DNA of 64,000 nt from Advenella kashmirensis W13003 (GTDB lineage: Bacteria; Pseudomonadota; Gammaproteobacteria; Burkholderiales; Burkholderiaceae_B). Made by a program: the position numbers and the translations under genes. The notes under the pieces are model-generated. The model did not search any database. It had not been told where the DNA came from and saw only the letters and a program-made list of their open reading frames with translations. Positions within the stretch are counted from its first letter, which is position 1, and every line of letters starts with the position of its first letter. The stretch lies in the NCBI RefSeq assembly GCF_000506985.1, contig NZ_KI650980.1, positions 930,001 through 994,000 of the forward strand, read 5' to 3'. This document shows positions 9,843 through 32,203 of the stretch, piece by piece.

Positions 9843-11534
9843 ATGAAGCCATTCTTCCGTTTAAAACCGCAGGTCCTGGCCGTCTTTACGCTAAGCATGG
9901 CCGCCAGTCTGGCCCATGCGGCCAATACTGGCGAGCTGCCCTGCAAAACAACAGCCGAATGTGAACAGCAGGCCATCAAGGCCGGCGCTGTAGCCAAACC
10001 CGTATCAAGCAAGGCCACCAGTAAAAACGATGAGAAAGAGGATCAGTTTTACTGGCTGGGCAAAATCAACAAGGCCTCGGCCGTGATGTTGACTGAAGAG
10101 AAAATTGTGTCGCCGGAAATGGGCGCCAAACTCGCCACCGGTGTCGCTTACTCGCTGGACCAGTCGGAAAAACCCGGGGGCAAGCGCCCCAAAGATGTAT
10201 TGCAGATTGAAAAAATTATCACCGACGACATTGGTCCCGATGCATCATTGATTCATACCGGGCGCAGCCGCCAGGATATGTACGCAACCTATCGCATGGC
10301 AAAGTTGCGCAACCAGGTGCTGGACTATTCTGATGCACTGGATGCGCTGCGAAGCCAATTGCTTGCAGTGGCCGCCAAGAACGTCGACACGATCGTGCCC
10401 GCTTACACCAATGGCGTCCAGGCCATGCCGATCAGCTATGCACATTATCTGCTAGCCTATGAAGCCTCATTTGCCAGAGATTCACAACGTATTCACGAAC
10501 TGTACAAGCGTATGAATTTGTCTGCCATGGGCACGGCGGTTCTGGCCAACTCCAGCTGGCCGCTTAATCGCGAACGCATGGCCGAACTGCTGGGCTTTGA
10601 CGGCATCATAGAAAACTCCCTGGATTCGAGCCAGGTCGCGCCTTCTGACGTGTCGCTGGAAGCCACGGGCATCCCCTCTTCGTCGGCTATCCGACTGGGC
10701 GTTCTGCTACAGGACATTCATACACAATACCACCAGACCCGTCCCTGGCTGTTGCTGGATGAAGGCAGTACCTACACCAGCAGCGCCATGCCACAAAAAC
10801 GCAATCCGGGTGTGATTATGCGTGCACGCGAGGCTGCCTCCAATGTCGTCGGACTGGCCCAGACGGTTGTCTTCAGGAATCATAACGTGACGACCGGCAT
10901 GACCGATTACAAATCCGCATGGGACGATATCGGGATCTTCCCGCAGGCCATTTCAATGATCGATAAAGTCAATGTCGTAATGAAGGCGCTGACCGTCAAT
11001 CCGAAACGCTCTCTGGAAGAACTCGAAGACGACTGGACCACGTCCATGGAACTGGCTGAAGCCTTGCAAAAGGAACATAAAATCCCGTTCCGCGTCGGCC
11101 ATAGCTTTGCCTCGTCGATTGTGACCGAAGCGCGCGCCAATGGGTTCAAGCCCAAGGATTTTCCGTACGAGAAGGCAGCCGAGCTTTACACAAAAGCACT
11201 ACAGAAATACAAACTGCCCGAAGAAAAATTTCCGATTAACGAAACGCATTTCCGCGAAGTGCTGTCGCCCGAATTCATGGTCAAAACCCGTGTTGGTACA
11301 GGCGGACCGCAGCCGGCCGAAGTCAAGCGTATGCTGGATGAAAGTAAAAAACGGCTGGATGAGGACAAGGCCTGGATGAAATCGACCCGCGATAAATTGG
11401 CACAGGCTGATCGCAAGCTGGATGAGGTTTTCGTCAAACTGAAGGATTCAGCAGACAAAGAACCCAATGCAGGGCCAGCCGAAGACAAGGCAAACAAACC
11501 CGCGGCGGAGTCGGCCCAAAAACCCAAGGGGTAA
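9843..11534 (+). CDS. Exported argininosuccinate-lyase-like protein
   Basis: A 563-residue member of the fumarase/argininosuccinate lyase superfamily with a signal peptide, so probably periplasmic. Residues 1-26 are basic then hydrophobic and end in AHA. The lyase core follows: HTGRSRQD at 138-145, a region-2 motif AYTNGVQAMP around 188-196, and the superfamily signature SSAMPQKRNP at 313-322. In ArgH the region-2 motif normally reads GYTHLQ; here Asn190 replaces the His used as general acid. The last 80 or so residues are Lys/Glu/Asp-rich and probably helical, beyond the normal ArgH end. AAGGAGACAACAA precedes the ATG. It stands alone and ends in a hairpin terminator. Activity may be altered. 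Not the biosynthetic argH. Confidence 0.85.
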   Translation: MKPFFRLKPQVLAVFTLSMAASLAHAANTGELPCKTTAECEQQAIKAGAVAKPVSSKATSKNDEKEDQFYWLGKINKASAVMLTEEKIVSPEMGAKLATGVAYSLDQSEKPGGKRPKDVLQIEKIITDDIGPDASLIHTGRSRQDMYATYRMAKLRNQVLDYSDALDALRSQLLAVAAKNVDTIVPAYTNGVQAMPISYAHYLLAYEASFARDSQRIHELYKRMNLSAMGTAVLANSSWPLNRERMAELLGFDGIIENSLDSSQVAPSDVSLEATGIPSSSAIRLGVLLQDIHTQYHQTRPWLLLDEGSTYTSSAMPQKRNPGVIMRAREAASNVVGLAQTVVFRNHNVTTGMTDYKSAWDDIGIFPQAISMIDKVNVVMKALTVNPKRSLEELEDDWTTSMELAEALQKEHKIPFRVGHSFASSIVTEARANGFKPKDFPYEKAAELYTKALQKYKLPEEKFPINETHFREVLSPEFMVKTRVGTGGPQPAEVKRMLDESKKRLDEDKAWMKSTRDKLAQADRKLDEVFVKLKDSADKEPNAGPAEDKANKPAAESAQKPKG

Positions 11535-11668: not shown

Positions 11669-12889
11669 TCAGAAGCGATGCCGCAGACCAACGCCTAACT
11701 GGGTGGATCGCAATTTCGCATCGCGTTTTTCCGGGTCGGCAAACGCCAATTTGCCAGCCCCATAAGACACGACTGCATTGAGATTGGTCCGTTTGGACAA
11801 CTGATGGGTATAGCCCAGGCTGAACACATTCAGACGTCCTTTGATACCCTGGTATTCGTCATCCGTATTCCTGGACCTGTTTCCCTGGTAAGAGAACATG
11901 ATTTTTCCCGCATCTCCCACAGGCGCCGTCGCGCCCAACAGCCAGGCGTGTTGGCGAAATCCGGCAGTCTGGAAGTAATTGCGCGAACTGACCGGGTCCG
12001 TTGCGTAGTGCGCGAGCTCGCCATTCAGGCCGGGCCCCACATCGGCTTCACTCACGACTTTGTGCGCCAGCGAACCGTGAATTCGGCCATATCCCGCGTA
12101 CAACTTAACGACCCCCAGGTCATAGGCACCAAAGAGGTTCCATATCACTGTGGTGCCGCTGTTTTTGTTATCGAAAGCCTTCCCGGCCTGATCGACACCA
12201 CTGACGCGCGCATCGCTGCGGAAACGGTCATATGAGGCACCCACTGACACCGGGCCACGTTCATAACCAGCCCCCGTTGAGACCCAGCGAGACATGTCCC
12301 GATCCTCCTTGGTTACGGCGCCATTTTCAGAGGATTCTGCAGAACGTTTATGCGACCCGGTATACGACAGGCCAAACTTGAAGCCACTCATTTCGGGTGA
12401 CTGGTATTTGATGGATTGTTCCATGTAGGCGCCAAAATCACCGAAAGTGGTATTCATTCCAGCCTGGCGAAACCCGGTGCTGAACGGGTCAAAACTCCCG
12501 GTGAAATCGTCGGCGACGTTCGACTGGCGACCCACGGTCACCGTACCCCAGCTCTCGCCTGTCAGCCCCATGATCGCTTCGCGGCCGAACAGACGACCTC
12601 CCTGCCGCGCGTGGCCGGTGCCCAGGCTGAATCCATTTTCCAGTGAGAAGATCACGCTGGTCCCGTTGCTCAGGTCTTCTGATCCACGCAACCCCCAACG
12701 ATTACTGCTCTGATTGAAATCGGCCAGGTGAACCTGCCGTTCACGGCTCCATTCGTCTCCGTGTGACACTTTGATATCAGTGTAGCGGATGCCCGCTTCA
12801 ACCAATCCGTACAGCGTAACTGAGGTCGTCGCGTGCGCCACCCCGGTGGCAGTGCCAAGCAGCACTAGGCATTGCAGTGCCTTTTTCAT
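11669..12889 (-). CDS. Gram-negative porin 1 (GBP/OmpC-like, betaproteobacterial)
   Basis: A 406-residue outer-membrane porin: signal peptide to about residue 20 (GVAHA-TTSV), the family start SVTLYGLVEAGI, the inner strand FGREAIMGLTGESWGTVTVGR, and a terminal HRF with Phe as last residue, which the BAM complex recognises. An in-frame TTG two codons upstream exists, but the ATG at 12889 has AAAGGAG at proper spacing. It is the leftmost of three tandem paralogues (also 13392-14639 and 14996-16171), each with its own leader hairpin and probably its own transcript. Passive uptake of small anionic solutes is the likely role. Confidence 0.93.
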   Translation of the reverse strand: MKKALQCLVLLGTATGVAHATTSVTLYGLVEAGIRYTDIKVSHGDEWSRERQVHLADFNQSSNRWGLRGSEDLSNGTSVIFSLENGFSLGTGHARQGGRLFGREAIMGLTGESWGTVTVGRQSNVADDFTGSFDPFSTGFRQAGMNTTFGDFGAYMEQSIKYQSPEMSGFKFGLSYTGSHKRSAESSENGAVTKEDRDMSRWVSTGAGYERGPVSVGASYDRFRSDARVSGVDQAGKAFDNKNSGTTVIWNLFGAYDLGVVKLYAGYGRIHGSLAHKVVSEADVGPGLNGELAHYATDPVSSRNYFQTAGFRQHAWLLGATAPVGDAGKIMFSYQGNRSRNTDDEYQGIKGRLNVFSLGYTHQLSKRTNLNAVVSYGAGKLAFADPEKRDAKLRSTQLGVGLRHRF

Positions 12890-12918
12890 ATACAAACTCC
12901 TTTAATCATACTCATTGA

Positions 12919-12935
12919 ATCCGGCGTGTCGGATT
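12919..12935 (-). promoter_or_regulatory. Leader palindrome of porin 1
   Basis: ATCCG-gcgtgt-CGGAT, about 30 bases ahead of the start codon. A near-identical palindrome lies at the same distance from porin 2 (14671-14687), and a different one near porin 3. It could be a 5' mRNA hairpin or a regulator site. Confidence 0.45.
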
Positions 12936-12950
12936 CGTTGTCTCCTTTCA

Positions 12951-12974
12951 GCCAGCGGATGGATACCCGCTGGC
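12951..12974 (-). promoter_or_regulatory. Second inverted repeat in the porin 1 leader
   Basis: Perfect 8-bp inverted repeat GCCAGCGG/CCGCTGGC with an 8-base loop, 62 bp before porin 1. It may act in the mRNA leader or as an operator. Confidence 0.35.
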
Positions 12975-13292
12975 AATGGCCGGTATTTACCGACCCGTGC
13001 CGACAACGCGACCAGATTCACGTCAATAGCGTGATGTCAATCGCGTATGCCGTCACGTCGCTGCTCCGGCGCTCGCTTGCCAATGCAGTCAAAACGGGCG
13101 CCGAAGCGGCGTGAGGCGTATCATATTTTCAGAATCGCAATGACGCCTTGATCTATGTAAAGGACAAATGTGAGGACTGTGTATATGGAGAATGAAGAAG
13201 GAACTCCGGAGCGCAAAAAATGCGCCTTAAGCCTTGTTTTATAAATAAAAATAGCTTTTTCCAGACACAAATAAAACCGGAAATTCGAATAG

Positions 13293-13336
13293 AAAAAAGC
13301 CTGAAAAATGTCGTATCAACATCAATCAGGCTTTTA
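13293..13336 (-). terminator. Terminator downstream of porin 2
   Basis: Inverted repeat AAAAGCCTGA/TCAGGCTTTT (13295-13304 and 13326-13335) which, read leftward, ends in a T-run. It lies about 55 bp past the porin 2 stop. The GCCTGA/TCAGGC arms recur in the porin 3 terminator. Confidence 0.65.
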
Positions 13337-13365
13337 AAAAGGTCAGATCGCTTTTGCTTGCGTGT

Positions 13366-13387
13366 ATGCATCGCCAAAGCGATGCAT
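13366..13387 (-). other. Hairpin directly after the porin 2 stop codon
   Basis: Perfect 9-bp stem ATGCATCGC/GCGATGCAT with a 4-base loop, 4 bp past the stop. There is no T-run on the leftward strand. It probably protects the mRNA 3' end ahead of the terminator further along. Confidence 0.45.
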
Positions 13388-13391
13388 CGCA

Positions 13392-14639
13392 TTAGAAGCG
13401 GTGTTGCAGACCAACACCAATCAGAGTGGCTTTCAGTTTGTAGTTACCCATATGGTATTGTTCACCAAACTTCATTTTACCCACACCGTATGAAGCAGCA
13501 GCGTATACACGAGTACGTTTAGACAGACCTTGTACGTAGCCAACACTGAAGATGCTCAGCTTGCCTTTGATATCCTTGAACGCGAAGCTTGTATTTTTGG
13601 ACTTATTACCCTGGTAAGAGAACAATAATGTTCCACTGTCACCCACAGGAGCGCTCAGACCAACCAGCCATGCTTGTTGGCGGAAACCGTCGGTTTGGGT
13701 GTAGTTATACTCTCTGGCAACAGTCCCAAATGCGCCCCTCTCTTTGTGAGTATAGACATTTGCCAGGCTACCATTCAGACCCACACCACCGACTTCACCT
13801 GCCACGGCACCACGAGTCTGGCCATAACCCAGATGCAGTTTAACGACTTCAAAGTCGTAGGCACCGAACAGGTTCCACATATGCGTAGTGCCAGCACTTT
13901 GAGTTTCTGTGTCATTACCGTTGGTGCTCGTTACATTGCGAACATCCGTGCGATAGCGGTCATATGACACACCAACTTCAATCGGACCATTCGCATAGCC
14001 CAGACCGGTAGAAATCCAGTTGGAAGTATCACGTTTCTCGGACTCGGTGTCGCCATCATCAGAAGTCACTTTACTGTTAACGCCAGAATAGGCCAGACCG
14101 AATTTGAAACCACCAAATTCAGGGGACATGTATTTGAAGGAATTGTCCATGCGAGAAGAAAGAGAATCGCCGAATGCGCCATCGGTAGCACCTGCGAAAA
14201 GAACGCTTGTACCAAATGGATCAATTCCGGAAACCACGTCGTCAGCGACGTTGTATTGGCGACCCAGAGTCAGCGTACCCCAGCTGTCGCCAGTCAGACC
14301 GATGATCGCTTTGCGACCAAACAGACGGCCACCTTGGGCTGATTTACCGTTACCCAGATTAAAACCACTTTCTACCTGGAAAATCGCACTTGTGCCATTG
14401 CCCAGATCTTCAGAGCCTTTCAGACCCCAGCGGTTACCATTCAGAATGCCGTTGACCATGCCGACATTGCGTGTCTTAGTCCAGCTTCCGGCTTGATCAG
14501 CGGTTGCATCCTGTGTCACTTTGGTTTGGGTGTAACCGATACCTGCATCAACCAGACCGTACAGCGTAACGGAAGTTGCAGCATGAGCCGCCCCGGTAGC
14601 AGCACCGAGCAGCACGATAGATTGCAGTGCCTTTTTCAT
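13392..14639 (-). CDS. Gram-negative porin 2
   Basis: A 415-residue outer-membrane porin, closely related to its two neighbours. It has a signal peptide (GAAHA-ATSV), the start SVTLYGLVDAGIGYTQ, the conserved stretch FGRKAIIGLTGDSWGTLTLGR and a C-terminal QHRF. An ATG six codons upstream is in frame, but the ATG at 14639 matches the MKKALQ start of porin 1 and has GGAG 8 bases ahead. The middle copy of the tandem array, flanked by a leader palindrome and two 3' hairpins, it is likely a separate transcription unit. Solute preference is unknown. Confidence 0.94.
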   Translation of the reverse strand: MKKALQSIVLLGAATGAAHAATSVTLYGLVDAGIGYTQTKVTQDATADQAGSWTKTRNVGMVNGILNGNRWGLKGSEDLGNGTSAIFQVESGFNLGNGKSAQGGRLFGRKAIIGLTGDSWGTLTLGRQYNVADDVVSGIDPFGTSVLFAGATDGAFGDSLSSRMDNSFKYMSPEFGGFKFGLAYSGVNSKVTSDDGDTESEKRDTSNWISTGLGYANGPIEVGVSYDRYRTDVRNVTSTNGNDTETQSAGTTHMWNLFGAYDFEVVKLHLGYGQTRGAVAGEVGGVGLNGSLANVYTHKERGAFGTVAREYNYTQTDGFRQQAWLVGLSAPVGDSGTLLFSYQGNKSKNTSFAFKDIKGKLSIFSVGYVQGLSKRTRVYAAASYGVGKMKFGEQYHMGNYKLKATLIGVGLQHRF

Positions 14640-14934
14640 ATTGAATACTCCATTCATATTACAAATTTCATTCCGGCGTACCGGATTACTTCACCACCTG
14701 CATGAGCATCCGCTTATCTTTTCAAATCAAAGGTTTACGGAAGCAGCTTGAGGAGTATTGTATTTTTGAGGGGTAAAGTGCCGCCTTGACCCAGGTTAAG
14801 GACAAGAGGAATGAAAAGGTGTATATGGAAAAGGCCGGCCGGGTGACCGCAGAATGCCGCTCCACCCTGATTTTCCGGGGAAAACGCTCAAAGGAGTGGA
14901 CAATGAAACTGCAAAAAAACCGGGCAAAAGAAAT
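14640..14934. other. Intergenic region upstream of porin 2
   Basis: Contains the porin 2 leader palindrome and, presumably, its promoter. No supported gene. The part next to porin 3 holds its terminator. Confidence 0.4.
14671..14687 (-). promoter_or_regulatory. Leader palindrome of porin 2
   Basis: TTCCGGCGTACCGGATT lies 32 bases before the start codon. It matches the porin 1 element in 14 of 17 positions while keeping the dyad, which suggests a conserved structure and not only paralogue drift. Confidence 0.45.
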
Positions 14935-14969
14935 GCCTGAAAGGTGTCGCTTTTTTGCACCAATCAGGC
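14935..14969 (-). terminator. Terminator downstream of porin 3
   Basis: Nested stem GCCTGA..GGTG / CACC..TCAGGC, 26 bp past the porin 3 stop. T-rich sequence follows on both strands (ATTTCTTTT leftward), so it fits an intrinsic terminator for porin 3. Confidence 0.6.
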
Positions 14970-14995
14970 TTTTTTACAACATTTTGAGCGGGTGT

Positions 14996-16171
14996 TTAGA
15001 AGCGGTGTTGCATTCCTGCAGCAATCAGCGTGGACTTGAGTTTCACTTTATCTTCCAGTCCGTCAAAGCGGATACTTCCACTGCCATAAGAGGCTACCGC
15101 ATACAGCGTGGTGCGTTTCGACAAATCCTGGCTGTAACCCAGGCTTCCAATATGCAGTGTTCCTTTGGCATTGTCGAACACGGTATCGGCGTTTTTCACC
15201 CGGTTGCCCTGATACGACATCATCAGGTGCCCTGCCTCGCCCACAGGAATGGTCAGGCCACCCAGCCAGGCCTGCTGACGATAACCGCTAGTGCCACTCA
15301 GAACAGAGGCAAAGCCGTCATCGGCCAATGCATTGTCGATAGAACGCACCAGGCCGGGAGATAGGCCGGTGGCAGGCAGTGCACCGCGTGTCTGGCCATA
15401 CATCAGATGGGCTTTGACAACGCTGAAGTCATATGTCGCACCCACGTTCCACATATGCGTGGTCGATTTTTCACTATTGTCTCCAAGAGTGATGTCGGTG
15501 CGGAAACGGTCATAAGTTGCCGCAATCACAAGCGGCCCATTTGTGTAGGCCAGGCCCGTCGTGATCCAGTTAGAGGTATTTCTGTCAACTGACCGGCCCG
15601 TGGCGTTGCTGTACTCGGTCTTCTCATTGCGACCCGCAAAGCCCAGGCCGAATTGAAAGCCGCTCCATGAAGGACTCATGTATTTAACAGCATCGGACAT
15701 ATTGGCTGATACAGAATCACCAAAAGCGCCGCCGGTCACGCCTGCCTGACCGAAATTGGTGCCGAAAGGATCCAGCGGCGACAGCAAATCATCCGCGATA
15801 TTGAACTGGCGCCCCAGCGTCAATGTTCCCCAATCAGCGCCGCTTAATCCCACCAGTGCACGCCGATCAAACAGCGTGCCTTCGGACAGGGAATGACCCG
15901 TCCCCAGGCTGAACCCGCTTTCCAGCTGGAAAACTGCGCTGGTGCCGTTGCCTAGATCTTCAGTCCCTTTCAGGCCCCAGTTGTTGGTTCCGCCCAGACC
16001 GTCGACCAGTCCGATATCGCGTGTTTTGACCCAGCTATCGCCGTAGCTGACTTTTGTTTGCGAATATCCCACACCCGCATCGACCAGTCCATACAGCTGT
16101 ACCGATGTTTCTGCATGCGCCAGACCTGCAAATGCAGTCAGCAGCGCCAACGGGAACAGACTTTTATTCAT
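14996..16171 (-). CDS. Gram-negative porin 3
   Basis: A 391-residue outer-membrane porin, the first copy in the leftward direction of the tandem trio. Signal peptide MNKSLFPLALLTAFAGLAHA, then SVQLYGLVDAGVGYSQ, FDRRALVGLSGADWGTLTLGR and a terminal QHRF. The ATG has TTTGGAGAAA ahead. It differs from the other two in its signal peptide and lacks the MKKALQ start, so it is the most divergent of the three. Its leader has a different imperfect hairpin. A general or small-acid diffusion channel is likely. Confidence 0.94.
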   Translation of the reverse strand: MNKSLFPLALLTAFAGLAHAETSVQLYGLVDAGVGYSQTKVSYGDSWVKTRDIGLVDGLGGTNNWGLKGTEDLGNGTSAVFQLESGFSLGTGHSLSEGTLFDRRALVGLSGADWGTLTLGRQFNIADDLLSPLDPFGTNFGQAGVTGGAFGDSVSANMSDAVKYMSPSWSGFQFGLGFAGRNEKTEYSNATGRSVDRNTSNWITTGLAYTNGPLVIAATYDRFRTDITLGDNSEKSTTHMWNVGATYDFSVVKAHLMYGQTRGALPATGLSPGLVRSIDNALADDGFASVLSGTSGYRQQAWLGGLTIPVGEAGHLMMSYQGNRVKNADTVFDNAKGTLHIGSLGYSQDLSKRTTLYAVASYGSGSIRFDGLEDKVKLKSTLIAAGMQHRF

Positions 16172-25209: not shown

Positions 25210-27156
25210 GTGATCCGCTCTACTGGTCTTACTTTACGCCGCGGCACCAAGGTGCTGCTTGAAAACGCCGATTTTGTCGTTCATCCCAAGGAACGCGTCG
25301 GCGTGGTTGGCAAAAACGGGTCAGGTAAAACGACGCTGTTCGCCGTGCTGCAAGGCAAAATCGACGCCGATGCCGGCGATCTGTTCATTCCCGAGTCCTG
25401 GCGTATTGCGACCGTCGAACAGGAAATTCATGCTACGACGCAGCCGGCCAGGGAGTTTGTGATCGATGGCGATCATCATCTGCGCGAACTGCAGCAGGCA
25501 CGTGCGGCCACGCCCGATAGCGAAGGCACCCGCATTGCCGAACTGGAAGCTGCGCTGGTCGAAGCCGATGCCTGGAGCGCACCGTCACGGGCTGAACAGT
25601 TGCTGGCGGGCCTGGGCTTTACCCCGGAACAATGGACGCAACCGGTCAACAGCTTTTCGGGCGGCTGGCAAATGCGTCTGGCACTGGCCCGCGCCCTGAT
25701 GGCGCCATCCGAATTGCTGTTGCTGGACGAACCGACCAATCACCTGGATCTGGATGCCATGTTGTGGCTGGAAAAATGGCTGTCGGCATACGACGGCACC
25801 GTGATCCTGATTTCCCACGATACCGAATTTCTCAATGCAGTGGCACGGACCATTCTGCATGTGGATCAGCAAAAACTGGTGCGCTACAAAGGCGGCTATG
25901 ATGATTTCCTGACCCAGCGCGCCGAACGGCTGCGGCAATTGCAGACTGCCATTGATCGTCAGAGTCGTGAAACGGCCCGGCTGCAATCCTTTATCGATCG
26001 CTTCAAGGCCAAAGCCACCAAGGCCAAGCAAGCACAAAGCCGCGTCAAGGCTCTGGCGCGCATGGAAAAACTGGCGCCCCTTCAGGCCGAGTCGGGAATC
26101 TACATACATATCCCCTCCCCCCCATCCATGCCCGACCCGCTGCTGCGGCTGGACAAGGTAGCCACCGGATATGTGGACGCACAAGGCAAGCAGACAACCA
26201 TTCTGACGGATATCGAACTGATGATCCGCGGTGGCGCCCGCATCGGCGTGCTGGGGGTCAACGGTGCGGGTAAAAGTACCCTGATCAAAACCATCGCCCG
26301 CGAACTGGCCCCGCTGGCCGGTCACTATAAGCCGTCGAAGGGCCTGGAAATCGGTTATTTTGCCCAGCATCAGCTGTATATGCTGGACATTGACGCCAGT
26401 CCGCTTCAGCATTTGCAACGCATTGCGCCACTTGCCCGGGAACAGGAACTGCGCAATTACCTTGGCGGCTTCGGCTTTGGCGGCGACAAGGTCAATGACA
26501 AGGTGGCGCCGTTTTCCGGGGGAGAAAAAGCCCGGCTGGCGCTCTCGCTCATTGTGTGGCAAAAACCCAATTTATTATTGCTGGACGAACCCAGCAATCA
26601 CCTGGATGTCGACACCCGGGAAGCCCTGGCTACGGCGCTGGCCGAATTCGAAGGCAGCATGCTGATGGTCTCGCATGACCGCCATTTGCTGCGCACCACA
26701 GTCGACAGCTTCTGGATTGTGGCAGACGGCCATGTGCAAACCTTTGATGGCGATCTGGACGACTATCGCGACTGGCTGAACCAGCGTGCGCTTGCGCAAC
26801 GACAGGAAGCACGTGATGCCTCGGCCGCAATCGATGGCACCGTAATCGCACCGGACCGCAAGGCGGTGCGTCGGCAGCAGGCAGAAGAGCGCCAGCGTAT
26901 CGCGCAGTTACGCAAACCGCTGGACAAGCGTCTTGGCCTGGTTGAAAAAGCGATCGAAATCGCACAAGCCAGGCTGGGCGAGATGGATGCGCTGATCGCG
27001 GATGAAGATTTTTATGCTGACGCACGCCGCGACGAGCGGGTTGCCGTACTGGCCGAGCATGGCGAGCTGAGCGCCAAAATGCAGACACTGGAAGAAGAAT
27101 GGCTGCAACTTCACGAATCCATTGACGCCCTGTCAGCATCGGCCGACATTGACTAA
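25210..27156 (+). CDS. ABC-F family ATPase (YheS-like)
   Basis: A 648-residue cytoplasmic protein with two ABC ATPase domains and no membrane segment. Walker A motifs are GKNGSGKTT (about residue 35) and GVNGAGKST; signatures are NSFSGGWQMRLALARAL and FSGGEKARLALSL; Walker B regions LLLLDEPTNHLD and LLLLDEPSNHLD. The charged linker between them (RFKAKATKAKQAQSRVKAL) and the C-terminal coiled coil fit YheS/Uup ribosome-associated factors. The start is GTG. ABC-F proteins act at the ribosomal E site to resolve stalled or damaged states. The YheS sub-family is my best fit by length and ends. Confidence 0.92.
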   Translation: MIRSTGLTLRRGTKVLLENADFVVHPKERVGVVGKNGSGKTTLFAVLQGKIDADAGDLFIPESWRIATVEQEIHATTQPAREFVIDGDHHLRELQQARAATPDSEGTRIAELEAALVEADAWSAPSRAEQLLAGLGFTPEQWTQPVNSFSGGWQMRLALARALMAPSELLLLDEPTNHLDLDAMLWLEKWLSAYDGTVILISHDTEFLNAVARTILHVDQQKLVRYKGGYDDFLTQRAERLRQLQTAIDRQSRETARLQSFIDRFKAKATKAKQAQSRVKALARMEKLAPLQAESGIYIHIPSPPSMPDPLLRLDKVATGYVDAQGKQTTILTDIELMIRGGARIGVLGVNGAGKSTLIKTIARELAPLAGHYKPSKGLEIGYFAQHQLYMLDIDASPLQHLQRIAPLAREQELRNYLGGFGFGGDKVNDKVAPFSGGEKARLALSLIVWQKPNLLLLDEPSNHLDVDTREALATALAEFEGSMLMVSHDRHLLRTTVDSFWIVADGHVQTFDGDLDDYRDWLNQRALAQRQEARDASAAIDGTVIAPDRKAVRRQQAEERQRIAQLRKPLDKRLGLVEKAIEIAQARLGEMDALIADEDFYADARRDERVAVLAEHGELSAKMQTLEEEWLQLHESIDALSASADID

Positions 27157-27171
27157 ACTGCGTTGCTTGCG

Positions 27172-27209
27172 GCTGACGGTGCCTTATAGCAATTTGCACC
27201 GCCTTCAGC
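27172..27209 (+). terminator. Possible terminator after the ABC-F gene
   Basis: Bulged stem GCTGA-CGGTGC (27172-27182) pairing with GCACCG-cct-TCAGC (27196-27209), followed by GCTTTATATG. The T-tract is poor. Confidence 0.4.
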
Positions 27210-27235
27210 GCTTTATATGATATATGGCAATATCG

Positions 27236-27296
27236 ACATTCTTTTAATGTATTTCAGTCATAAGTAAATACTTTCTATACTGACCGGCATGCATGC
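27236..27296. promoter_or_regulatory. Candidate control region of the flavoprotein-rubredoxin-ABC operon
   Basis: Contains a dyad ACATT-cttt t-AATGT (27236-27250), a possible -10 TATACT at 27276-27281 with a weak -35, and a palindrome GCATGCATGC at 27287-27296 where a repressor could block the start site. AGGATAAGT precedes the first gene's ATG. No regulator gene is adjacent. Function inferred. Confidence 0.35.
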
Positions 27297-27314
27297 ATTA
27301 AGTATAGGATAAGT

Positions 27315-28451
27315 ATGTCTGCCACCGAAATTTCCCCCTCCGCAAGCAGTGAGACCGCTCAACGATTCGAAGCGATTGACGCGCTGCTGGCCGCCAAACT
27401 CAAACCGCTGGTCCAGCAAATTGACCAGGAAGGACTGTATCCCGAAGCAGTGATCCGCGAGCTGGGTCAGCTGGGTGCGTATGACGCAGCCGTGACTCGT
27501 CCTTTCGGTGGGCGCGAGACCGGACTGGCCGAACAGATCGAAATTACCCGCCGTATTGCGGGCTACTGCGCATCCACTGCGTTTATCACCTGGTGCCAAT
27601 CCACATCAGCATGGTATCTGCAGCATGCCCCCAATGCAGCGGCACGGGAGAAATTCCTGCCCGCAGTCGCCAGCGGGCAGTTGCTGTCTGGCACCGGCAT
27701 GTCCAATACTGTCAAGCACCTGGCCGACATTGAGCGCATCCATCTGACGGCAACACGCAACGGCGACAACCTGATTGTCAACGGTAGTCTGCCCTGGGTA
27801 TCCAACCTGGGCCAAGGCCATATCGTCATTGTCGCAGCGCGTGTCGAAGACGAAGGCTATGCCATGTTTGCCGTCGATTGCGACCAGCCGGGGCTGACAC
27901 TCAAGCCTTGCCCTGAATTTTCCGGCTACGAAGGCACACGCACGTTCAATGTGCGCTTTGCCGATGTGCAGGTTCTAGCCGATCATGTGCTGGCCCAGCC
28001 CGCCCAATTCAAAGAATTCATTCGACGCATCAAGCCCGGTTTCATTCTCGGGCAGATCGGCATTGGCCTGGGTGTCATTGATGCGAGCCTGAAGATTATT
28101 CGCGACAGTAACCTGACGCACGAACATGTCAACGTCTTTCTGGATGACCAGTTTGACGAGTTGAAGTCGGAACTGGATGCTTATGCTTCTGCGACAGGCA
28201 ATATGTCTGCATTGGCCGATACGGATCAGTCCGAACTGCTGCCTGTGCTGCAAGCGCGCGCTGCAGCGTCGGAGCTGAGCCTGAAAGCCACGCAATCGGC
28301 TGCGCTGCATGCCGGCGCAAAGGGTTACCTGATGCGCCACGCTGCCCAGCGCCTGTTGCGCGAAGCCCTGTTTGTAGCCATCGTGACGCCCGCGCTCAAA
28401 CATTTGCGCAAGGAAATCCATGCGCTGCAGAACGAGAAACAGGCGGCATAA
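27315..28451 (+). CDS. Acyl-CoA dehydrogenase-like flavoprotein
   Basis: A 378-residue flavoprotein of the acyl-CoA dehydrogenase fold: helical N-domain (to about 115), beta domain (about 115-220, with GTGMSNTVKH where flavin is usually bound) and helical C-domain. The C-terminal block that holds the catalytic Glu in beta-oxidation enzymes here reads REALFVAIVTPALKHL, with no obvious Glu at that place. That resembles flavin monooxygenase-type relatives (DszC/SfnC group) more than true dehydrogenases. Its stop overlaps the rubredoxin start (TAATG), and an ABC importer follows, so I infer oxidation of an imported compound. Substrate unknown; desulfurisation is one guess. Confidence 0.83.
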   Translation: MSATEISPSASSETAQRFEAIDALLAAKLKPLVQQIDQEGLYPEAVIRELGQLGAYDAAVTRPFGGRETGLAEQIEITRRIAGYCASTAFITWCQSTSAWYLQHAPNAAAREKFLPAVASGQLLSGTGMSNTVKHLADIERIHLTATRNGDNLIVNGSLPWVSNLGQGHIVIVAARVEDEGYAMFAVDCDQPGLTLKPCPEFSGYEGTRTFNVRFADVQVLADHVLAQPAQFKEFIRRIKPGFILGQIGIGLGVIDASLKIIRDSNLTHEHVNVFLDDQFDELKSELDAYASATGNMSALADTDQSELLPVLQARAAASELSLKATQSAALHAGAKGYLMRHAAQRLLREALFVAIVTPALKHLRKEIHALQNEKQAA

Positions 28452-28615
28452 TGAAACAGTGGATGTGCGCGCCCTGTGGTTTTATCTATGACGAGGCGGC
28501 GGGCCTGCCCGGAGAAGGCATTCCCGCCGGCACCCGTTTTGAAGACATTCCGGATAGCTGGGTTTGCCCCGACTGCGGACTGAGCAAAATGGACTTTGTC
28601 CTGATTCCGGACTGA
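28451..28615 (+). CDS. Rubredoxin
   Basis: A 54-residue one-iron electron carrier, MKQWMCAPCGFIYDE at the N-terminus. The two metal knuckles are CAPCG (Cys6, Cys9) and CPDCG near residues 39-42, giving four cysteine ligands. The ATG overlaps the stop of the flavoprotein gene by one base, which implies coupled translation and a working partnership. Rubredoxins feed electrons to monooxygenases and other flavoproteins. The ABC ATPase gene begins 4 bp after the stop. Confidence 0.94.
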   Translation: MKQWMCAPCGFIYDEAAGLPGEGIPAGTRFEDIPDSWVCPDCGLSKMDFVLIPD

Positions 28616-28619
28616 CACC

Positions 28620-29480
28620 ATGAAATCATTTCTGCCGGACGACTCGCCCGTTTACCAGAATAGCGGTACGCTGTCGAGCGTCGCACAACCGCAGGCCAGC
28701 GCAGATGGTCGGCACACGCTGTTGCATGCCGAGCACATTCGTATCAGCTACCAGCGTGATGGTACTGAGCGCACCATTTTGGATGATTTTTCGCTGTCGC
28801 TGCACGAGCAGGAATTTGTGGTCATTATCGGGCCCAGTGGTGTAGGCAAATCTTCCCTGCTGCGTATTTTGTCCGGTCTGCAGGCGCCGCAGGCGGGGCA
28901 GATTCTCCTGAAAAACCAGCCTGTTACTCAGCCCCACCCTGATATCAGTTTCGTCTTTCAGGATCCGAATCTGTTGCCCTGGCTGAATGCGTCACAGAAT
29001 ATTGCATATGGCATGAATTTCAAACGTCATAAAAATCGCAGCCGGCCTGAAATTGATGCGGCCGTCAGCGAAGCCATTGAGACAGTCAAACTGCGTGGCT
29101 TTGGCAGCCACTATCCGGCTGATCTGTCGGGCGGGATGGCGCAGCGTGTTGCCCTGGCCCGCAGTCTGGCACGTCGGCCACGCATCCTGATGCTGGATGA
29201 ACCCTTAAGCGCCCTGGATGAAATTACCCGTACCCAGATGCAACAGTTGCTGCTGGATACGATCGCGCATTATCGCGCTTCAGCCGTGATGGTCACCCAT
29301 GATATTGATGAAGCGCTGACCCTGGCGGATCGCATCATTCTGCTGGATAACAACGCGACCGGTCACAGGCAGTGGCAACTGAATCAGGCCCATCCTCGCG
29401 ACGTGGCCAGTACCGAATTTCTGCAGCTTCGCGCCGACATCATCCATACGCTGCGCAATGCTTTTGGCGCCCTCGCCTGA
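28620..29480 (+). CDS. ABC transporter ATPase, nitrate/sulfonate/taurine type
   Basis: A 286-residue ATP-binding subunit of the SsuB/TauB/NrtD group. Walker A GPSGVGKSS is at residues 71-79, the signature is LSGGMAQRVALARSLARR and Walker B is ILMLDEPLSALD; the switch His lies in VTHDIDEAL. The first 35 or so residues are an extra, low-complexity lead without known role. It starts 4 bp after the rubredoxin stop and precedes the binding protein and permease, so it energises this importer. Confidence 0.93.
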   Translation: MKSFLPDDSPVYQNSGTLSSVAQPQASADGRHTLLHAEHIRISYQRDGTERTILDDFSLSLHEQEFVVIIGPSGVGKSSLLRILSGLQAPQAGQILLKNQPVTQPHPDISFVFQDPNLLPWLNASQNIAYGMNFKRHKNRSRPEIDAAVSEAIETVKLRGFGSHYPADLSGGMAQRVALARSLARRPRILMLDEPLSALDEITRTQMQQLLLDTIAHYRASAVMVTHDIDEALTLADRIILLDNNATGHRQWQLNQAHPRDVASTEFLQLRADIIHTLRNAFGALA

Positions 29481-29532
29481 CTTTTCCTACCGTGTTTTTT
29501 CCATCCCTATTCTTTCAATCGAGTCATTGTTC

Positions 29533-30711
29533 ATGAATATCCGCTCCCGCCGTGAATTTCTTCGTCTGTCATCCATGCTCACGGCTGCGGGCGCCCTGCC
29601 CCTGCTCAATGCCCAGCAGCGCGCGTTTGCCGCCGAGCCTGACGCGCCTGTGCGTATCGGCTATCTGCCGATCACCGACGCCACGCCGCTGCTGGTGGCC
29701 CATGCCAATAAACTGTTCGAAGCAGAAGGTCTGCAGGTGGATAAGCCGCGGCTGTTTCGCAGCTGGGCACAGCTTGCCGAAGCGTTTCTGAGCGGTCAGG
29801 TCAATGTGATTCATTTGCTATCGCCCATGACGGTCTGGACACGCTACGGCAGCCAGGCCAAGGCCAAAGTGGTGGCCTGGAACCATATGTCGGGCTCAGG
29901 GCTGACCGTCGCGCCCAATATCAATGACGTGAAGGACTTGGGTGGCAAAACGGTAGCCATTCCGTTCTGGTATTCCATACATAACGTGGTCCTGCAGCAA
30001 TTGCTGAGCAAAAACAATCTGACACCCGTCTCGCACGACAAACCGGCCGCCAATGAGGTCAAGCTGGTTGTCATGGCGCCCTCCGACATGGTCCCGGCCC
30101 TGGCCAATAAAACCATTGCCGGCTACATTGTGGCGGAACCGTTCAATGCCCTGGCCGAGGATCTGAAAGTCGGTAAAGTACTGCGGTTTACGGGCGATGT
30201 CTGGAAGGACCATGCCTGTTGCGTGGTCCTGATGCATGAGCGCGACCTGACCGAAAGGCAGGATTGGACCCAGAAAACCGTGAACGCCATCGTCAAGGCG
30301 CAGGCCTGGATTCGGGATCACCGTCAGGAAACGGCCGATTTGCTGAGCAAGGACGGCACTAACAAGTACACCCCGCACAGCAAACCCACGCTGTCGCGCG
30401 TGTTGGTGCCCGAGGCGAATTTCGAGACCCAATATGAATCCACCGGTGCCATTCGTCATGCCGACTGGAAAACCGCGCGCATCGATTTTCAACCGTACCC
30501 GTTCGCCTCTTATACCGAAGAGCTGATCCGTCAATTGAAAAATACGCATATTGAAGGCAATAACGCCTTCCTGAAAGACCTGGATCCCGCGTTCGTTGCA
30601 GGCGATCTGGTCGATGACCGCTTTGTCAAAAACGCGCTTGCCGCAGTGGGCGGTTTGAAGACATTCGGGCTGGATGACACGTTTACACGCACCGAACAGG
30701 TCGCCGCCTAG
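29533..30711 (+). CDS. ABC substrate-binding protein, NrtA/SsuA-like, Tat-type signal
   Basis: A 392-residue periplasmic binding protein of the nitrate/sulfonate/aromatic-compound (NMT1/THI5-like) group. The N-terminus carries a twin-arginine motif SRREFLRLSS with a hydrophobic stretch and cleavage near AFA-AEP, so it may be exported folded through Tat. The mature start VRIGYLPITDATPLLVAHA is typical. An earlier in-frame start 75 bp upstream would bury the signal, so ATG 29533 is preferred. Between the ATPase and permease genes in one operon. The ligand is not known and bears on the flavoprotein's substrate. Confidence 0.92.
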   Translation: MNIRSRREFLRLSSMLTAAGALPLLNAQQRAFAAEPDAPVRIGYLPITDATPLLVAHANKLFEAEGLQVDKPRLFRSWAQLAEAFLSGQVNVIHLLSPMTVWTRYGSQAKAKVVAWNHMSGSGLTVAPNINDVKDLGGKTVAIPFWYSIHNVVLQQLLSKNNLTPVSHDKPAANEVKLVVMAPSDMVPALANKTIAGYIVAEPFNALAEDLKVGKVLRFTGDVWKDHACCVVLMHERDLTERQDWTQKTVNAIVKAQAWIRDHRQETADLLSKDGTNKYTPHSKPTLSRVLVPEANFETQYESTGAIRHADWKTARIDFQPYPFASYTEELIRQLKNTHIEGNNAFLKDLDPAFVAGDLVDDRFVKNALAAVGGLKTFGLDDTFTRTEQVAA

Positions 30712-30719
30712 GAACGCTT

Positions 30720-31538
30720 ATGACAACGGCTAGCATCGCCCCCTCGTCCGCTTCGTCGACCAAACCCCGTCGTACCTTTCGATCGCCGTCAGTGCTGGCT
30801 GGTATTGCGGGCCTCGTGGTGCTCGTATTGCTGTGGGGGATTGGTGCACACAGCCTGAGCGGTTCCATGCCGTTGGCAGAGCAGCTATCACCACAAAACA
30901 GTTTTGCGGCACTGGCCCGGTTGCTGGGACAAAGCGAGCTACCCGCACACGCGCTGACCAGCCTGCGGCGTGTTTTTGTCGGACTGGCCCTGGCGCTGGT
31001 GATCGGTATTCCGATCGGACTCGCGGTAGGCAGCTCGCGCTGGTTCGACAACAGCACGCAACCGGCGTTTCAGTTTCTGCGCATGATTTCGCCGCTTTCG
31101 TGGATGCCTATTGCCGTGATGATTTTCGGCATTGGCGATGCGCCCATCTATTTTCTGCTGACCTTTGCCGCTGTCTGGCCCATCATCCTGAATACGGCCG
31201 CAGGCGTCAGGAACCTGAATCCACAATGGCTGCAACTGAGTCGCAGCATGTCGGCAACCCGATTTGAAACGCTCAGGACGATTGTCCTGCCAGGCGTGCT
31301 ATCGCATATCCTGACAGGCTTGCGACTGTCTATCGGCATCTCCTGGATTTTGCTGGTGCCCTGCGAAATGCTGGGTGTCTCCTCGGGCCTGGGCTATTTC
31401 ATTCTTGATACCCGGGACCGGCTGGCCTACTCAGAACTGATGGCAGGCATTCTGTTTATTGGTCTGCTTGGCTTTGTTCTGGATTATCTGGCACAGGCGC
31501 TGTATCGCCATTTTACTTACGGCAAGCAGACCAGTTAA
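30720..31538 (+). CDS. ABC transporter permease, nitrate/sulfonate/taurine type
   Basis: A 272-residue inner-membrane subunit with about six helices and the BPD-transport inner-membrane domain; the EAA-type loop is around SMSATRFETLRTIVLPGVL. It follows the binding protein by 8 bp and completes the importer. An Ala/Ser/Pro-rich lead of about 25 residues precedes helix 1. Its stop codon overlaps that of the convergent trpF gene: both are TAA within TTAA at 31535-31538. Confidence 0.93.
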   Translation: MTTASIAPSSASSTKPRRTFRSPSVLAGIAGLVVLVLLWGIGAHSLSGSMPLAEQLSPQNSFAALARLLGQSELPAHALTSLRRVFVGLALALVIGIPIGLAVGSSRWFDNSTQPAFQFLRMISPLSWMPIAVMIFGIGDAPIYFLLTFAAVWPIILNTAAGVRNLNPQWLQLSRSMSATRFETLRTIVLPGVLSHILTGLRLSIGISWILLVPCEMLGVSSGLGYFILDTRDRLAYSELMAGILFIGLLGFVLDYLAQALYRHFTYGKQTS

Positions 31539-32203
31539 AGCTCAACGGGTCTGTGCTGCCGGTCAGCATCGGTCAGCGCCAGCATGAACGAGCGCATTTT
31601 GCCTGCGCTTTTTTCACCCGGAGCGATTTCAATTCCGCTACTCAAATCAACTGCATACGGGTGATACTCGCTCACCAGCGAGGCGATATTGCTCGCGTTC
31701 AGCCCGCCTGCGATCATAATTCTGTGCGAATCCAGTCTGCTGCGAGCCTGAGCCAGCAATGTCATGTCAAATGAAATCCCCGCGCCGCCATAGGCAGGCG
31801 AATAGGCATCAAACAGGAAGGCCCTCGCGTTCGGGTACGCTTCTATTGCAGTTGCAATTTCCTGAGCGGTCGTCAATCCAGGCGCGCCGACCCGCAAGGC
31901 ACGAATATACGGATAGGAAAACTGTTCGCAGAACTCGCCGGATTCATCACCATGGAACTGGATGAAATCCGGTGCAATATCACGCATGATCTGTTCAATG
32001 TTCTGTGCGCTTTCATTCACGGTCAGCGTAACCGCGCTGACAAAAGCCGGGACCTCGCGCCGCAAAACGGCTGCCCGTGCCAGCGGCACATAGCGCTTGC
32101 TCTTTGCATACAACACCAGTCCGATGGCATCGGCACCGGTCTGGACTGCGTCGTGGATATCTTTTTCCGACGACAGCCCACAAAATTTAACGCGGGTTCT
32201 CAT
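31535..32203 (-). CDS. trpF: Phosphoribosylanthranilate isomerase
   Basis: A 222-residue TIM-barrel isomerase that converts phosphoribosylanthranilate to the ribulose form in tryptophan synthesis. KFCGLSS near residue 6 contains the catalytic Cys; Asp in FLFDAYSP and the phosphate loop IAGGLNASN are also present. A ten-codon longer frame exists, but the ATG at 32203 gives the usual start MRTRVKFCG. The usual neighbours trpB and trpA are not here. A strong terminator ends about 13 bases before the start codon, so expression may rely on a promoter upstream of it or on readthrough. Confidence 0.95.
   Translation of the reverse strand: MRTRVKFCGLSSEKDIHDAVQTGADAIGLVLYAKSKRYVPLARAAVLRREVPAFVSAVTLTVNESAQNIEQIMRDIAPDFIQFHGDESGEFCEQFSYPYIRALRVGAPGLTTAQEIATAIEAYPNARAFLFDAYSPAYGGAGISFDMTLLAQARSRLDSHRIMIAGGLNASNIASLVSEYHPYAVDLSSGIEIAPGEKSAGKMRSFMLALTDADRQHRPVEL

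Follow-up and report, generated by a model that had tools for sequence, protein, structure and literature searches.

A five-gene flavoprotein, rubredoxin, and ABC importer unit of Advenella kashmirensis W13003 as a candidate system for thiocyanate uptake and desulfurization

A candidate sulfur-scavenging unit for thiocyanate

Five adjacent plus-strand genes (positions 27315 to 31538) in a 64,000-nucleotide stretch of Advenella kashmirensis W13003 (contig NZ_KI650980.1, positions 930,001 to 994,000; hereafter the window) encode a flavoprotein of the acyl-CoA dehydrogenase (ACAD) fold, a rubredoxin, and the ATPase, binding protein, and permease of an ABC importer. On balance, these genes appear to constitute a sulfur-scavenging unit for thiocyanate, a reading in which the ligand and the reaction, and with them what the flavin does, which way electrons flow, and the role of the thiol-redox partners CMD and OsmC, are inferred rather than observed. 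Thiocyanate fits best of the compounds considered because of the cyanate-type importer, the redox flavoenzyme, the thiol-redox partner, the optional rhodanese or cyanase, and gene expression tied to both cyanide and sulfur. The importer would bring in thiocyanate, and the flavoprotein, reduced through rubredoxin where one is present, would attack its sulfur with O2 and cleave the C–S bond; the products would be cyanate and oxidized or sulfane sulfur, the sulfur being captured by thiols and entering assimilation. A CMD/AhpD (CxxCxxxH) or OsmC protein, encoded in most relatives, may act alongside as a thiol relay or peroxidase, and the rhodanese, DUF302, persulfide-dioxygenase-like, or cyanase gene added in some lineages may handle the products. 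The first-pass annotation of this DNA, made from the sequence alone, had proposed an importer-tied flavin enzyme for a scavenged sulfur, nitrogen, or aromatic compound; sulfur or nitrogen scavenging is retained here and the aromatic option dropped, as the evidence points to an anion of the cyanate/thiocyanate type and away from aromatic compounds and sulfonates. Its remark that no described pathway matches agrees with a search of the open-access literature, which returned none.

The binding protein carries a two-cysteine signature

The longest open reading frame (ORF) for the binding protein opens at 29458, within the ATPase gene; the gene is taken as 29533–30711 (plus strand; Pfam NMT1_2) because the Tat signal begins at 29533 with the Tat-type start MNIRSRREFLRLSS, as the Tat-type label given earlier had it. 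A structural model of the protein aligned with NrtA (nitrate; Z 36.0), CmpA (bicarbonate; 34.5), and Staphylococcus aureus 3un6 (32.5) ahead of SsuA (25.5) and TauA (25.4); by its predicted fold, it is nearer to nitrate- and bicarbonate-binding than to sulfonate-binding proteins. In binding proteins of the nitrate type, the lysine of a PEK block contacts nitrate. This lysine is absent from the window's protein, which has WKDHACC instead. The HxCC motif within it occurs in 77/77 binding proteins encoded at flavoprotein loci, whichever of the two sub-types they belong to, and in 12/12 binding proteins beside cyanase, 10 of these 12 loci being without a flavoprotein (cyanase-led sample, n=40 loci); the binding protein of an operon on a cyanobacterial plasmid, which includes cyanase and no flavoprotein, has it as well. 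None of four nitrate-type controls (two beside nirB, two by annotation) carries HxCC, all having PEK, and one of them, L209, has a second nearby binding protein with neither PEK nor CC. Survey loci read on both strands, the window (L126) included, gave HxCC in 21/23, L130 and L142 being negative; L130 is apparently the same place as L020, which is HxCC-positive in the 77/77 count. Judged from these alignments, HxCC would mark importers of cyanate-like anions, with one Bradyrhizobium exception unexplained, and by this signature, derived in the present analysis, the window's importer is of the cyanate type.

The ATPase (28620–29480, plus strand; Pfam PF00005) scored below the NCBIfam cutoffs for NtrCD, SaoA, and SsuB, and the nitrate importer NrtABC profiles gave 197.9 versus a required 291.8 bits for the ATPase (TIGR01184) and 152.8 versus 209.05 bits for the permease (TIGR01183), a protein encoded at 30720–31538 (plus strand; Pfam PF00528, BPD). 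The binding protein's best NCBIfam match is SsuA_fam (TIGR01728), which is among the points favoring organosulfur scavenging of the ssu/sfn kind, i.e., import of a sulfonate, sulfinate, or sulfone for a class D-like monooxygenase with rubredoxin replacing the FMN reductase. The match lies under its cutoff, however (100.6 versus 163.5 bits), and the SsuABC assignment fails with it. Known ssu and sfn units resemble the window's in joining an ABC importer to a flavin enzyme for a sulfur source, and a peroxiredoxin beside ssu genes offers a parallel to CMD/OsmC. They differ in the binding protein, which in the window is nearer to the nitrate/bicarbonate than to the SsuA/TauA kind, in the enzyme, which is nearer to dehydrogenases, and in the rubredoxin that stands in place of an FMN reductase. 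Weak NCBIfam matches of the flavoprotein to SfnB and DszC, together with the sulfur-linked expression of PA2328–PA2330 and the pANL location described below, speak for the organosulfur alternative, but DszC, matched by profile at E 2.3e-14, is surpassed by many dehydrogenases (to E 1.3e-37), and the links to cyanase and hydrogen cyanide (HCN) are left unexplained; we regard it as unlikely.

A search with the binding protein through 398 evenly drawn genomes of the phylum (E up to 1e-45) found it in 17, the window's included. At the 17 other binding-protein loci (one genome has two), the flavoprotein adjoins in 15, accompanied by CMD in 12 and by OsmC in 3; rubredoxin occurs in one (L147, apparently the L020 place), a reductase in one (L157), and the binding protein stands alone in two. 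Identity to the window's binding protein reaches 69% in Agrobacterium T29, 61% in Bartonella sp. HY406, and 57% on the Synechococcus plasmid pANL, where the flavoproteins are 24–26% identical. With conservation thus higher in the binding protein than in the flavoprotein, the cargo has probably remained constant and the enzyme diverged. The OsmC-type loci often have a binding protein of another sub-type, 23–28% identical to the window's.

Cyanase links and the choice between cyanate and thiocyanate

Cyanase was found in 69/398 genomes of the phylum, and the cyanase-led sample comprised the best 40 of 70 rows by E-value, with four stretches shortened by contig ends and L241 being the same place as L157. 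An NrtA-like importer adjoins cyanase in 12 of these best 40 loci, and binding proteins 45–48% identical to the window's are clustered with cyanase in L004, L074, and L157. Counted by genome, cyanase accompanies the window-type binding protein in 8/17, versus 61/381 elsewhere (Fisher p 0.0036, kinship uncorrected and on the assumption that both searches drew the same 398 genomes). The window's own genome has no cyanase (0/1), and its cargo is for this reason more likely thiocyanate, the sulfur analogue, than bare cyanate. Operons of the cynABDS type (cyanate importer plus cyanase) likewise share HxCC in the binding protein with the window's unit and differ from it in that 10/12 of those sampled are without a flavoprotein, as well as in the cyanase that the window's genome does not have.

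These links would also suit a unit handling cyanide or cyanate with sulfur not the goal, in which the flavoprotein oxidizes cyanide to cyanate, or cyanate is the importer's cargo and the flavoprotein's substrate is a cyanide-derived compound. Cyanase neighbors, the HxCC motif shared with cyanate importers, and the rise of PA2328–PA2331 with endogenous HCN (below) are consistent with such a function. HCN should need no importer, however, cyanase is absent from the window's genome and, in the available sequence, from 43 CMD-type loci, and sulfur co-variation, rhodanese neighbors, and the pANL location would not be accounted for, which makes it decidedly unlikely.

The flavoprotein keeps an ACAD fold and lacks the catalytic Glu

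The flavoprotein (378 residues; 27315–28451, plus strand) contains the ACAD N and M domains by Pfam, and the ACAD C-terminal domain PF00441 is absent at E up to 0.01. Its AlphaFold2 model (mean pLDDT 96.4) is closest to isovaleryl- and short-chain acyl-CoA dehydrogenases at Z 43–44, namely 1ivh (Z 43.7, root-mean-square deviation 2.5, 363 aligned) and 2vig (Z 43.4, root-mean-square deviation 2.6, 366 aligned). The first-pass annotation had pointed to IVTPALKH where the catalytic Glu region would lie, and position 358 is indeed Thr, followed by Pro (the IVTPA motif), in the window copy and 43/43 relatives. The catalytic Glu lies at the MCAD-type or the IVD-type position, and ordinary ACADs can have it in a YEGT block at the column of position 358. 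In the window copy and 43/43 relatives, it is missing at the MCAD-type position (Thr358), and at the IVD-type position the family alignment has a three-column gap and no Glu. The same column in ordinary ACADs of the window's genome (n=21, from 23 rows, L176 and L199 [wrong frame] being left out) holds Glu in 8, Asp in 4, and other residues in 9; because only 8/21 have Glu there, its loss alone proves little. Loss of Glu at both known positions combined with the unrecognized C-terminal domain makes an ordinary acyl-CoA dehydrogenase improbable, as the first-pass annotation had judged.

Residues invariant among 59 aligned members include Phe90, Trp93, Ser130, Asn131, Lys134, Glu140, Trp161, Gln247, Arg315, Glu350, and Thr358, and Cys85 is kept in 53/59. 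As far as the alignment goes, the strict Thr-Pro at 358 is a mark of the flavoprotein family, and the residue pattern argues against the usual α-proton abstraction without indicating the actual reaction; an oxygenase or oxidase role is suggested instead by the rubredoxin and thiol-redox partners. Redox-silent C–S cleavage, as by the ACAD relative 3-sulfinopropanoyl-CoA desulfinase, acting on an imported and activated sulfur acid, would be compatible with the presence in the fold list of 5ahs (Z 40.4), a desulfinase from an Advenella species, and with a weak NCBIfam match of 54.2 bits. Given a cutoff of 600 bits for that match, the absence of a CoA ligase or transferase from the unit, and a rubredoxin or reductase match in 56/89 loci, which argues for redox turnover, cleavage of this kind is highly improbable.

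Importer and thiol-redox genes as the steadier neighbors

A tblastn search of plasmid records with the flavoprotein gave best relatives at 35–50% identity, and an alignment of the window's flavoprotein with eight relatives (A2) was scanned against one-per-species genomes, yielding at least 570 relatives among 597 matched stretches; the alignment-based scan of genome contigs found relatives where a single-sequence scan found none. Within the window's family, the flavoprotein is present at E up to 1e-60 in 23/61 genomes. Profiles were run on all frames, with a reach of 8 kb, at 89 loci comprising 9 from the plasmid collection and the best 80 of the at least 570 genome relatives. A thiol-redox gene is present in 83/89 loci (CMD/AhpD in 43 and OsmC in 40, with no locus having both by these profiles; at L059, a small CMD gene also lies beside OsmC by Pfam), the binding protein in 77/89, and a rubredoxin or rubredoxin-reductase profile match in 56/89, among which the matches at L054 and L073 are reductase-like, on the opposite strand, and may be unrelated. 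Sigma-54 activators occur in 30/89, cyanase in 21/89, and rhodanese in 8/89. Restriction to loci with at least 1.5 kb on the left and 2.5 kb on the right (n=76) gave CMD/OsmC in 73, the binding protein in 70, and rubredoxin or reductase in 49. A CMD/OsmC partner lies within the stricter limit of 1.5 kb in 74/89 loci, and rubredoxin or reductase lies on the same strand at most 3 kb downstream in 54/89 (23/43 CMD-type loci). This neighborhood conservation is far beyond chance, and the steadier partners of the flavoprotein are the importer and the thiol-redox protein, not rubredoxin.

The window's rubredoxin itself (54 residues; 28451–28615, plus strand) is unambiguous by profile (Pfam PF00301, 74.4 bits versus a cutoff of 23). 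Some loci encode a rubredoxin–reductase fusion, and the stand-alone reductase of L059 has a rubredoxin-binding domain by Pfam. In a quick tree of 96 flavoproteins (long-branch warnings for L011, L122, L054, and L010; rows with too little context left out of the label counts), the minimum number of label changes is 15 for rubredoxin and 8 for cyanase. A flavoprotein–rubredoxin pair as the conserved core, which the first-pass annotation had placed at the heart of the unit, is ruled out by this patchiness (54/89 flavoprotein loci, 1/17 binding-protein loci, and at least 15 label changes).

Several observations from the survey stand apart. A chromosome-size Neisseria gonorrhoeae record filed as a plasmid (L003:6389-8350) holds CMD, a flavoprotein 50% identical to the window's, and an intact rubredoxin, with no importer in the 7 kb to its left or right. 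An importer is likewise missing from the available sequence of several other Neisseria loci. A small gene directly follows the flavoprotein at L060:9174-9566, its product being DUF302 by Pfam, and at L090:9096-9485, where the product looks alike. The unit lies on conjugative-typed plasmids of Marinobacter, Acetobacter, Pseudosulfitobacter, and Agrobacterium (L004, L005, L008, and L125), and Thioalkalivibrio strains (L069, L072, L074–L076, and L078) have the OsmC–flavoprotein unit with an importer.

Defense against host or self oxidants such as peroxide or hypothiocyanite, with CMD/OsmC as the effector, would make use of the same partners. CMD and OsmC are thiol-peroxidase families. The CMD proteins carry CxxCxxxH in 42/43 loci, and the importer-free Neisseria loci keep CMD, flavoprotein, and rubredoxin, yet an importer would not be expected in such a function, and in tests of HCN-controlled genes, mutants of PA2328–PA2331 showed no significant hypochlorite sensitivity (PMC10687435); we hold oxidant defense to be very unlikely.

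Named counterparts and their expression

Pseudomonas aeruginosa PA2327–PA2330 are annotated as a NitT/TauT permease, an NrtA-like binding protein, an ATPase, and an acyl-CoA/acyl-ACP dehydrogenase (PMC8274868, PMC8466066); by these published names, PA2327–PA2331 have the permease, binding protein, ATPase, and dehydrogenase order of the window's unit, and PA2331 would be the CMD protein. Genomes of a further group (f16), Pseudomonadaceae by guess, share the CMD–flavoprotein–importer arrangement with binding proteins 65–70% identical to the window's and differ in having no rubredoxin and a flavoprotein only 27–28% identical. PA2328–PA2331 are up with endogenous HCN in a table of PMC10687435, after Frangipani et al. 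2014, the text giving 12 induced genes; the same paper has rhodanese turning HCN into thiocyanate and, of the HCN-controlled gene mutants tested, reports only PA4134 as significantly hypochlorite-sensitive. The operon PA2327–PA2331 is quorum-activated (PMC3315558), as are PA2330 and PA2331 in a second study (PMC8863103), and PA2328–PA2331 share one table with hcnABC (PMC7775676); the effect of AmpR on PA2327–PA2331 differs in sign between table and text (PMC3315558). On deletion of PA2504, PA2328–PA2330 fall together with cys and sulfonate genes (PMC8466066).

On the Synechococcus elongatus plasmid pANL, flavoprotein, ATPase, binding protein, and permease stand in one run, three genes from cysK; the differences are DUF4242 upstream in place of CMD/OsmC, no rubredoxin found, and a flavoprotein 26% identical to the window's. 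According to PMC8049743, srpI is sulfur-starvation-induced and lies on a plasmid rich in sulfur-related genes, pANL by the paper's reference list; the induction is stated for srpI and not for the flavoprotein gene.

Proposed thiocyanate uptake and desulfurization weighed

Thiocyanate dehydrogenase and thiocyanate hydrolase share with the window's unit the substrate proposed for it and belong to other protein families than the flavoprotein. Thiocyanate dehydrogenase of lithotrophs, assigned also in an autotrophic Afipia, is the enzyme named for the cyanate pathway in PMC5328954 and PMC8061750, and term searches of the open-access literature found none for the cyanate pathway of heterotrophs. 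More tentatively than the assignment of the window's unit itself, we suggest that the family may supply this missing intracellular cyanate pathway: a flavoenzyme of the ACAD fold, taking its electrons from rubredoxin or a different donor and working with a CMD/OsmC partner, might desulfurize imported thiocyanate to cyanate from cyanobacteria to Neisseria and pseudomonads, recovering the sulfur spent by rhodanese on cyanide. If true, this would assign a function to PA2327–PA2331, whose role is unknown although the operon responds to quorum sensing and cyanide. It would also extend the ACAD fold to a new chemistry and supply annotation with a two-cysteine signature that tells cyanate-type from nitrate importers.

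Several findings weigh against thiocyanate as the cargo or against parts of the scheme. Cyanase is found in 0/43 loci of the CMD type, to which the window is closest (available sequence, up to 8 kb), only 2/40 cyanase-led loci have a flavoprotein, and in OsmC-type loci the cyanase may belong to a cyanate importer merely adjoining the flavoprotein. Papers on thiocyanate oxidizers hold cyanase to be no reliable marker of the cyanate pathway, and because of this the argument rests also on the binding-protein signature and the expression data. The binding-protein model has a mean pLDDT of 83, the block 221–230 that holds HxCC averages 62, the best PDB sequence match is the uncharacterized Staphylococcus aureus 3un6 and not NrtA, and a Bradyrhizobium importer (L205:3255-4679) has HPCC beside a molybdopterin-dependent oxidoreductase, with cyanase absent in the stretch read. 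For the counterparts, the PA2327–PA2331 match rests on published names and order, and the assignment of the f16 genomes to Pseudomonadaceae is a guess, the one weak pointer being a stretch of L145 with a 79% match to Azotobacter. The thiocyanate papers that were term-searched mention neither rubredoxin nor acyl-CoA dehydrogenase, nor OsmC where that was searched. Finally, the window copy itself has no adjoining CMD/OsmC gene, unlike most relatives, and its genome has no rubredoxin-binding reductase domain. That 4.85-Mb genome contains one distant CMD match (30%), four OsmC matches, and one further rubredoxin, and the window copy might be served by partners acting in trans, or it might be a reduced version of the unit.

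The Bradyrhizobium importer at L205 may, as an observation in its own right, carry another anion of the same class.

Gene layout and surrounding DNA

All five genes lie on the plus strand in the order first described, and the ORF coordinates reproduce the close packing reported with it: the flavoprotein stop and rubredoxin start overlap by one base in TAATG, and 4 bp separate rubredoxin from the ATPase gene. The unit looks self-contained because it is flanked by an upstream ORF for an ABC-F ATPase-like protein (25210–27156) and a convergent downstream ORF for a phosphoribosylanthranilate isomerase-like protein, both assigned by eye. The 158-bp upstream gap (27157–27314, plus strand) has no CMD/OsmC gene and holds a weak sigma-70-like site at 27193–27221; a promoter and terminator scan of 27000–31800 gave 4 sites versus 2.7 expected, not above shuffles, and for this reason the site offers no evidence of function. 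No Rfam match exceeded its gathering score in 26900–31800. Elsewhere in the window, and by eye, the minus strand at 11669–16171 has three tandem porin-like ORFs that are alike in sequence, and 9843–11534 encodes a protein resembling the fumarase/argininosuccinate-lyase type that seems to carry an export signal, a rare feature in enzymes of this class.

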